Assembly: GCA_947624345.1 (NCBI GenBank)
Contig: CANQJW010000002.1
Coordinates: forward strand, 1-60,343
From: an uncultured Clostridia bacterium
GTDB lineage: Bacteria > Bacillota > Clostridia > Oscillospirales > Ruminococcaceae
Length of the DNA stretch: 60,343 nt
Reading direction: 5' to 3'
Each line of letters starts with the position of its first letter. Position 1 is the stretch's first letter. Shown piece by piece: positions 161 to 2,396 of this stretch. The notes under the pieces are model-generated. The model did not search any database and was not told the origin of the DNA. It was given only the letters and a program-made list of their open reading frames with translations. Made by a program: the position numbers and the translations under genes.

Positions 161-2134
161 CTATTTCACCTTTACCTTCTTCTTACTCTTGAACCACTTA
201 CTATACACCTTCTGCGTCTTGCCCTTTGCGTCCTTGTAAGTCGTATATGCTCTTACCCTTACAAAGTATTTCTTCTTGCTCTTTAGCTTCTTGATAACAA
301 GCTTGTTCTTGACAGTCGCCTTATTGACTACGTTCTTCTTGAAGTTCTTCTTAGTAGACGCCTGTACTTCATAGCCTACCGCCTTTGCAACCTTCTTCCA
401 AGATACAGTTATCTTCTTCTTGCCCTTAGCCTTTGCTGTAAGGCTTGTTATCTTAGCTTGTTTAATCGCCTTTTCAGCATCAGCCTTAGCCTCTGAAGCC
501 TTTTGAGCCGGTGACGTTGTCTTTTTAACATTACCGCCTGTTGGTTTTGTCGGGTTTGTTGGATTTGACGGATTTGTCGGGTCAGAGCTGTCTGATGGGG
601 CTGACGGGTCTGATTCGGACGGGTTTGTTGGGTCTGACGGGGTTGATGGGTCTGTCGGGGTTGATGGGTCTGTCGGGGTTGATGGGTCTGTCGGGGTTGG
701 TGGCTCGTCTTTCTTTTCTTCTAAACCTTCGATTGCTGAATATATATCCTCTGTAAGATATTTCATACCTAATATGTGTGATTTATCGCTCTTGGTAGAT
801 GCTTGCTCTAGCAATTCTTTTAATACTCCGTAGCTTTCTTCTGTATAATCTTTTTCTGAGTATTTATTTGCCTCTTTTACCGCTGTGTTTAGTTCCTTAT
901 AGGTTTTTGACATTTCTTCTTCTATATCACTACAAGTTCTCTGGCTCTTTGCCACCGAATCCCAATAGCAAAATACTCTTGCACCTTCTGATATTGCATC
1001 TGCTGTTCTTGAGTATAAATATACGTTTTCTATTGATGCTGAAAGAAAAGGTTTATTTACACTATATGAAACAACATTTTCAGGAATTTCTATAACTTTA
1101 AGATTTGTACAGTTAAAAAACGCATTTGATGATATTTCAGTAATCTGTGAGCCATCTGCAAACGCTACTTCCTCCAATGCTGTTTCACTGATATCATCAC
1201 TCTGATATTTACCACCAGCAAACCCATAGCTAAGGTCTGTCACCGAAGCAGGTATTACTATCTTTTTTAACTGCGGACATTGAAGAAATGGCGAGTTTGT
1301 AATGCATTTAATTCCCTCTTTAAATGTAACTGATGAGAGCTTTGCACATTTGGCAAATGCACAATTTTGATAAGAAGTTCCATTGTTGCCGGCAATTTGA
1401 TCCCATCTCTCTATCGTTGATGGGATTACAACACTTTCAACACCTGTATTTTGAAACGCAGCTGCTCCAATAAATGTTAGTCCTTCAGGAAGTGTTATGT
1501 TCTTTAATGATGTGCAATTCCTAAATGTATTATTCCCCCAATCAGAATCAGAAGATCCAACAAAACCACCAGGATGTTCACAAATAAGAGTTGACGGTAT
1601 TTTTACACTTTCTAACGAAGTGCAGCTTTCAAATGCCGCTCCACCTAATGCTGTCATACCTTCTGCTAATGTAACATTTCTAAGAGACGTACATTCTGCA
1701 AAAGCATAAGAGTAACGAATTCCACCAGTATCTTTTCCCTGTACCCAACTATTAAATTTTCTTATTGTCGATGGTAAAACAACAGTTTCAAGATTAGGCA
1801 TTTTATAGAACGCACAGTATCCTATTGATGTTACGCCTTCTTCAATTACCACCTCTTTGATATCCTCTTTATGCTCTTTTTTATATGTATAAACGCTCTC
1901 ATAATCTTCAATCACAGGTGCTTTAACACCACTACCACCCTCATAAGTGGGTGCTGATGCCATTTCACCTTTACCCGAAATTGTAAGTTTGCCGTCCGAG
2001 TCCAATGTCCATGTTATTCCGTCTCCACAAGTGCCGTTAGCAACTTCACTTGCTGAAGCTGTCATTGCACCAGTGATTGCTGTTAGTGCCATTGCCAATG
2101 ATGCCAACAATGACAAAATTCTTTTAAGTTTCAT
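161..2134 (-). CDS. Secreted BspA-type leucine-rich-repeat protein with Pro/Thr/Asp/Ser linker and C-terminal cationic FnIII-like module
   Basis: Signal peptide MKLKRILSLLASLAMALTAITGAMTASA; repeated 'LKNITLPEGLTFIGAAAFQNT' LRR_5-like units; PTDPST linker. Start moved to the second Met because AAAGGTGG lies upstream of that ATG and the longer start is a GTG inside the SD. Confidence 0.85.
   Translation of the reverse strand: MKLKRILSLLASLAMALTAITGAMTASASEVANGTCGDGITWTLDSDGKLTISGKGEMASAPTYEGGSGVKAPVIEDYESVYTYKKEHKEDIKEVVIEEGVTSIGYCAFYKMPNLETVVLPSTIRKFNSWVQGKDTGGIRYSYAFAECTSLRNVTLAEGMTALGGAAFESCTSLESVKIPSTLICEHPGGFVGSSDSDWGNNTFRNCTSLKNITLPEGLTFIGAAAFQNTGVESVVIPSTIERWDQIAGNNGTSYQNCAFAKCAKLSSVTFKEGIKCITNSPFLQCPQLKKIVIPASVTDLSYGFAGGKYQSDDISETALEEVAFADGSQITEISSNAFFNCTNLKVIEIPENVVSYSVNKPFLSASIENVYLYSRTADAISEGARVFCYWDSVAKSQRTCSDIEEEMSKTYKELNTAVKEANKYSEKDYTEESYGVLKELLEQASTKSDKSHILGMKYLTEDIYSAIEGLEEKKDEPPTPTDPSTPTDPSTPTDPSTPSDPTNPSESDPSAPSDSSDPTNPSNPTNPTKPTGGNVKKTTSPAQKASEAKADAEKAIKQAKITSLTAKAKGKKKITVSWKKVAKAVGYEVQASTKKNFKKNVVNKATVKNKLVIKKLKSKKKYFVRVRAYTTYKDAKGKTQKVYSKWFKSKKKVKVK
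629..706 (-). repeat. 18-bp in-frame tandem repeat (about 4 units) encoding PTDPST
   Basis: 'gggttgatgggtctgtcg' repeated head to tail on the plus strand. Confidence 0.85.
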
Positions 2135-2168
2135 ACTAGAAACCACCTTTCTTTTTTAATAATAATCT

Positions 2169-2187
2169 ATGTAATTTAAAATTACAT
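2169..2187. promoter_or_regulatory. 19-bp perfect palindrome upstream of the LRR gene
   Basis: ATGTAATTT-A-AAATTACAT. Confidence 0.4.
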
Positions 2188-2202
2188 CAAAATATACAAA
2201 AA

Positions 2203-2230
2203 GACGCAGTACGCCTATGCATACTACGTC
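2203..2230 (-). terminator. Rho-independent terminator of the small ORF
   Basis: Minus strand GACGTAGTA-TGCATAGGCG-TACTGCGTC followed by TTTTTG. Confidence 0.75.
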
Positions 2231-2257
2231 CTATTTACAATATTTAAATCTAAAGAA

Positions 2258-2338
2258 CTATTCTGTACACAGCAAATAAAGGTTAGGCAAAATGCCCCCC
2301 CCCCCGTTTACAAATACTGGGTAATTTGCGTTGTACAT
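2258..2338 (-). CDS. Small ORF, 26 aa: MYNANYPVFVNGGGGILPNLYLLCTE
   Basis: Not in the ORF track (too short). SD AAGGAGGGACTGCT-ATG, promoter TTGACA-17-TATATT upstream, terminator downstream, G11 tract inside the ORF. Confidence 0.55.
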   Translation of the reverse strand: MYNANYPVFVNGGGGILPNLYLLCTE

Positions 2339-2367
2339 AGCAGTCCCTCCTTAAACTTGGTATCTAT

Positions 2368-2396
2368 AATATAACATATTTCGAGAGGGGTGTCAA
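2368..2396 (-). promoter_or_regulatory. Sigma-70-type promoter of the small ORF
   Basis: Minus strand TTGACA (2396-2391), 17-nt spacer, TATATT (2373-2368). Confidence 0.75.

Follow-up and report, generated by a model that had tools for sequence, protein, structure and literature searches.

A probable G-tract-gated attenuator in the leaders of surface-protein genes of gut Ruminococcus-related bacteria

What does a run of 11 G residues do inside a very short open reading frame (ORF) that lies upstream of a gene encoding a secreted LRR protein? The question arises from the window analyzed here (the whole 60,343-nt stretch of DNA), for which a preliminary description had listed, on the minus strand, TTGACA and TATATT spaced by 17 nt, a Shine-Dalgarno (SD) sequence with ATG, a 26-codon ORF and a GC hairpin with a T-run. 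All of these elements are present, and the 11 consecutive G residues are found at 2305-2295 within the leader ORF. The unit and the gene behind it are laid out as follows.

2368-2396, minus strand: sigma-A-type promoter TTGACA-17-TATATT (TTGACA 2396-2391, TATATT 2373-2368)
2346-2352, minus strand: SD sequence AAGGAGG of the leader ORF, read from the sequence
2258-2338, minus strand: leader ORF in the assembled G11 frame, 26 aa, ATG at 2338, stop TAG at 2260-2258
2332-2337, minus strand: start-codon stem, 5' side TGTACA, overlapping the ATG
2295-2305, minus strand: G11 tract (11 consecutive G), the putative frame switch, of varying length in homologous copies
2285-2297, minus strand: small stem-loop GGGCATTTTGCCT, its 5' side being the 3' end of the tract
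2264-2269, minus strand: start-codon stem, 3' side TGTACA, covarying with the 5' side
2224-2338, minus strand: alternative long leader frame, read if the tract is G10; its counterpart is open in 49 of 49 copies
2198-2232, minus strand: putative attenuator, a predicted intrinsic terminator with a 14-bp stem (2232-2201) and T-run
2135-2200, minus strand: 5' UTR from terminator to gene, with palindrome ATGTAATTTTAAATTACAT and SD GAAAGGTGG
161-2134, minus strand: the gene thought to be controlled, encoding a secreted BspA-type LRR (LRR_5) plus fibronectin type III protein of 657 aa (Pfam)

The promoter scores 11 of 12 matches in a promoter-site scan of the window, with TG preceding the -10 element, and comparison of the promoters of all leader copies found it conserved across nearly all of them. 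No minus-strand promoter-like site was found by promoter scan between the terminator and the LRR gene, and Rfam 15 gave no match above gathering score within the window. The leader folds 5.5 standard deviations below shuffled sequences (z = -5.5). Computed readings of the tract reproduced the alternative frames proposed earlier: G12 gives a peptide ending in VNGGGGHFA, and G10 opens a longer frame, MYNANYPVFVNGGGAFCLTFICCVQNSSLDLNIVNRT (37 aa), which ends at a TAG (2226-2224) within the terminator's 5' arm. Relative to the hairpin, the G11 stop falls 28 nt short, the G12 stop 53 nt short and the G10 stop inside the arm.

The locus has several other features. The perfect palindrome ATGTAATTTTAAATTACAT (2161-2185) lies between the terminator and the SD of the LRR gene, a region also compared among the copies in the same genome, others of which have a different UTR with GCAAAG..CTTTGC and CAAGTCTGC. 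The promoter spacer (2374-2390) is conserved in many leaders as CCYGTCGAAA or CCTCTCGAAA, which suggests, judging by the sequence, the site of a bound regulator. Within the LRR gene (541-720) a low-complexity TDPSTP/SDPTNP linker is coded by tandem repeats and is possibly another length-variable site.

We consider it likely, from sequence and by analogy, that the unit is a G-tract-gated, translation-coupled transcription attenuator. RNA polymerase would initiate at TTGACA/TATATT and a ribosome on the leader ORF. In the long frame (G10 in the window) the ribosome would enter the 5' arm of the terminator and block the hairpin, and polymerase would continue into the secreted LRR gene (ON). At the assembled length of G11, or at G12, the ribosome would halt 28 or 53 nt early, the hairpin would form and transcription would end (OFF). 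Tract length would be altered by slipped-strand mispairing, so that each of the more than 20 genes behind such a leader could switch on its own. The same tract could also be subject to slippage at the RNA level. Terminator activity, ribosome-dependent read-through and switching in cells are what we infer from the anatomy plus a published analogue, since the window has the geometry of the S. gallolyticus pil1 leader (discussed below) and no promoter-like site on this strand follows the terminator.

The genome that contains the window (G000; 1.70 Mb in 111 contigs, about 85% complete) carries the 211-bp unit more than 20 times, counting both full and partial copies. Full copies are 83-94% identical, nearly all tracts are G11, and about 14 contig ends fall inside the leader unit. 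Every copy whose downstream side is assembled is directly followed by a secreted-protein gene, and the genes behind these leaders encode the nearly identical signal peptide MKLKRILSLLASLAMAVTAVTGAMSVSA. Leader orientation and distance to the gene start are constant, and homology extends across the UTR and the signal peptide. Paralogous genes with the same signal peptide were found in a sample behind other promoters that lack the leader, which indicates that the leader is a regulatory module separate from the gene. Thus, what had been described as a self-contained transcription unit appears instead to be the attenuated 5' leader of the downstream LRR gene. In several copies, recurring ttgataattgacaatggataatta and aacagcgttcgaaatttttccgaacgctgtt repeats flank the leader on its upstream side. 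Some copies (L039, 4223 onward; L068, 4388 onward) have a strong SD (GGAGGTGAT) between terminator and gene and a TTG/GTG-started frame that reads into the start of the secreted gene, which would make it either another leader ORF or an N-terminal extension.

Conservation in relatives, proposed earlier as a check, was found at the level of architecture, in that a G8...CGTAGT pattern matches 11 of the 15 genomes of the genus (reversed-pattern control, 0). This recurrence, together with the more than 20 copies in one genome, places the unit far beyond chance. An assembly error could lie behind any one tract, but homologous G8-G12 tracts recur in independent assemblies. Most species of the genus have leaders of related type, and three or more divergent members lie outside it. 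Named records among the relatives are rabbit-gut metagenome-assembled genomes (MAGs) of uncultured Clostridia, and the diverged members are Ruminococcus-labelled MAGs (L130 and L147) plus L159 and L158 in two other family genera, L159 being identical to L130 across the leader region shown. Matches in Citrifermentans, Roseibacillus, Bacteroidales, Mucilaginibacter and a Klebsiella-labelled MAG look like chance occurrences, the sequence being unrelated and for the most part GC-rich; L131, L142 and L151 are the ones examined individually. The sole viral match (L207) is unrelated and the G8 tracts L188-L191 are not leaders. L193, in genome G007, is a chance match adjoining a CRISPR-like array of GTCGCCCCTCACACGAGGGGCGTGGATTGAA repeats (contig C6, partly masked as N).

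The downstream products sampled by Pfam are diverse: LRR_5/fn3 proteins, Cna_B/FctA/DUF7601 pilin-like proteins, LytTR response regulators, an ABC transporter, a dockerin protein, a VTC-domain protein and a zinc-ribbon protein. The leader precedes LytTR-type response regulators in L072, L107, L117, L185 and L110, so that the regulator itself may be phase-variable. In L181 (G009, contig C13) the tract is G26 as assembled and precedes a large protein resembling the Cna_B pilin-like protein of L179.

If the ribosome is to enter the terminator, one frame must stay open that far. The terminator was located and all three tract phases were read in 49 distinct copies. L065, at a contig end, was left out of the statistics (its hairpin had been misplaced by the automatic terminator finder); the finder also misplaced the hairpin of L158, the real one being GGCGTAG further on. 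A frame leads into or through the hairpin in 49 of 49 copies. Exactly one frame does so in 38, and two frames reach the hairpin in the other 11, such that ON/OFF would not always be one in three. The long frame mostly ends at the TAG of GRCGTAGT, and thus the hairpin's own 5' arm provides the stop; in L105, L112, L117, L118 and L178 it crosses the hairpin without stopping at that TAG. The remaining frames usually end 11-73 nt short of the hairpin. Shuffled sequences are expected to have any open frame in 50% of copies versus the 49 of 49 observed. A neutral simulation on a FastTree tree, which is substitution-only, ignores indels and relies on the alignment of short sequences, gave a mean of 52% and a maximum of 88% open tips and reached 100% in 0 of 400 replicates. 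Two relatives have no G tract, L061 in this genome and L192 in G001, and both are open into the hairpin. The L061 ORF (contig C9, 31198-31382), MCKATNIQHLPEELKMMTFISDAQNSSLDFNYRA, ends exactly at the hairpin-arm TAG. By its sequence L061 looks like a natural locked-ON form, and L192 is similar. The interrupted tracts of L070 (G3AG6) and L194 (G7AG) both put the leader in a short frame.

The peptide itself gave a different picture. In 22 disjoint closest pairs, the long-frame differences at the three codon positions were 33/45/41 before the tract and 97/109/107 after it, with no third-codon-position excess in either half. The peptide is therefore probably not the product, and the bioactive-peptide and arrest-peptide readings were dropped as favourites on this test. 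Of the earlier proposals, the phase-variable peptide thus gives way to an open path into the terminator as the thing that is kept. The leader-peptide reading is supported, the tract sitting in a leader ORF, as does poly-G as a substrate for phase variation, given that the copies have G8-G12 tracts plus one G26 (L181) and that length picks the continuing frame. An LTFIxxAQN motif recurs in the long frame. Its AQN part belongs to a helix formed with the start region (TGTGCA..TGCACA or TGTACA..TGTACA; GC, 17; AU, 7), and this covariation makes the motif mostly a pairing partner of the start region rather than an instance of protein conservation. In the four-helix structure of the leader, 97.1% of cells are paired versus 92.5% in shuffles and 27-60% when the structure is slid, and 25 cells are double-changed (compensatory) versus 6.4 in shuffles. 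The terminator stem has compensatory changes in relatives, and promoter, terminator and start-codon stem are all conserved. The small stem at the tract end has analogues in other copies (GGC..GCC, GGT..ACC and GGGTT..AACCC). Note that the long start-region stem covers the SD and the AUG; it would plausibly shut the leader to later ribosomes after the first has left, in the short frame and not in the long one.

As assembled, 10 of the 49 copies have a tract that selects the long frame. The tract has one G too many in 34 copies and two too many (equivalent to one short) in 5. The 34:5 skew among OFF copies (p = 2e-6, uncorrected; 21:5, p = 0.0025 after collapsing by genome x class) counts against free random switching, which does not predict it. 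The +1 relation is kept in L047 (a 1-nt deletion with G12), L066 (one extra base before the tract with G10) and L046 (three fewer G). The +1 excess hints either that OFF is selected as the default, a one-base insertion from ON, or that RNA-level slippage exploits this state. In the latter case the attenuator would be the same and the frame change would be programmed at the RNA level, through slippage of the polymerase or +1 frameshifting of the ribosome on GGG codons. A constant share of rounds would then read into the terminator, giving a set low level rather than heritable ON/OFF. We hold this to be possible but doubtful. It would account for the 34 of 39 OFF copies whose tract has exactly one surplus G, for the compensated indels of L047 and L066 and the difference of exactly three G in L046, and it fits a small stem that begins within the tract. 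It does not sit well with the 10 of 49 copies that are ON as assembled or the 5 that are +2, nor with the single-copy ABC-transporter leader, the tract of which differs between species (G9 in G002 and G006; G10 in G004 and G012). Moreover, tracts of 9-12 G are equally typical of DNA slippage, and L181 has G26.

Three further explanations were considered. An attenuator that senses an amino acid or an arrest peptide, stalling on Gly (GGG) codons or on a conserved nascent peptide, would explain the three to four consecutive GGG codons, the leader-plus-terminator layout typical of attenuators and the recurrence of LTFIxxAQN. We judge it quite improbable, because codon changes give no sign that the peptide itself is conserved, pairing with the start region accounts for the AQ motif, the targets are surface proteins rather than glycine metabolism and such a device has no need to keep a hairpin-open frame. 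A self-contained gene for a small peptide or sRNA, with the downstream gene transcribed separately, is unlikely: the complete promoter, the strong predicted terminator and the stable fold are what such a gene would have, but the downstream gene has no second promoter, copies with an assembled downstream side lie in gene 5' UTRs and the encoded peptide lacks codon-level conservation. Many dispersed near-identical copies in one genome could also be a MITE- or REP-like mobile repeat associated with genes by chance. This is very hard to reconcile with the constant orientation and spacing, homology that runs on through UTR and signal peptide, paralogous genes with other promoters (the unit behaves as a promoter/leader module) and retention of the open frame in diverged copies.

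The proposed G-tract attenuator resembles several known systems in part. In the poly-G/poly-C contingency loci of Neisseria, Campylobacter and Helicobacter, mononucleotide tracts of 8-12 set the reading frame, usually within the expressed gene or its promoter (reviewed in PMC11868660). Tract length likewise sets the frame here, but the tract lies in a separate leader ORF and would act via transcription termination. Attenuation of trp, his and tna employs a short translated leader and an intrinsic terminator, with ribosome position deciding termination. The present leaders share the short ORF and the terminator, whereas they have no regulated-amino-acid logic and the frame would be the switch. 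The downstream genes encode LRR, Cna_B, LytTR, ABC, dockerin and VTC proteins rather than the amino-acid metabolism expected of trp/his-type leaders. In the two folds viewed, the predicted one and the consensus one, no mutually exclusive antiterminator appears. Programmed slippage and frameshifting in bacteria occur, to our knowledge, chiefly at A/T runs of IS elements or of structural genes, none of them a G-run-gated attenuator; a homopolymer run that joins two frames is the common element.

The closest parallel is S. gallolyticus, in which GCAGA pentanucleotide repeats (13-22 units) precede the pilus loci pil1 and pil3 (PMC3894217). In pil1 a leader stop 49 bp before the terminator gives low expression and a stop 4 bp before or inside the hairpin gives high expression, chloramphenicol lowers the high expression, repeat number changes with phenotype and most populations are in the short-frame state (Danne et al. 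2014, PMC3894217). The leaders described here likewise have a slippage-prone repeat, placed within a leader ORF that has an SD and a promoter of its own, one frame that ends tens of nucleotides before the terminator and another that ends in or passes through it (49 of 49 copies), a predicted intrinsic terminator between leader and surface-protein gene, and most copies in the short-frame state as assembled. In contrast to pil1, the repeat is a G mononucleotide tract in an unrelated leader sequence, and so these leaders would work like pil1 and are not members of it by descent. They also differ in number, with over 20 copies scattered through a genome, and in their many classes of target, regulators among them; in addition, a conserved stem spans SD and AUG, and the terminator arm itself contains a stop codon. 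Tract variation here is between copies and between species (G8-G12, G26). When the full text of open-licence papers was searched for phase variation together with a leader peptide and either attenuation or a terminator, S. gallolyticus was the sole case found, and a 2025 phase-variation review mentions neither leader peptides nor attenuation. Among the papers searched, repeat-driven frame switching coupled to attenuation is thus already described only for the S. gallolyticus pili.

If the attenuator reading is right, gut Ruminococcus-related bacteria bear a modular switch ahead of more than 20 genes, for surface proteins, for pilin-like adhesins and even for regulators (in one genome or across the genus), with combinatorial surface diversity as the result. 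Metagenomes can be searched for the signature (SD-ATG, G8-12 and one frame into a terminator), and tract lengths can be counted there read by read. More tentatively, these attenuators may be deliberately held one nucleotide off-frame, with RNA-level slippage giving dozens of surface genes a level that is set stochastically for each transcript and rare tract mutations adding heritable ON states. Were that true, they would form a regulatory class that unites programmed slippage with attenuation.
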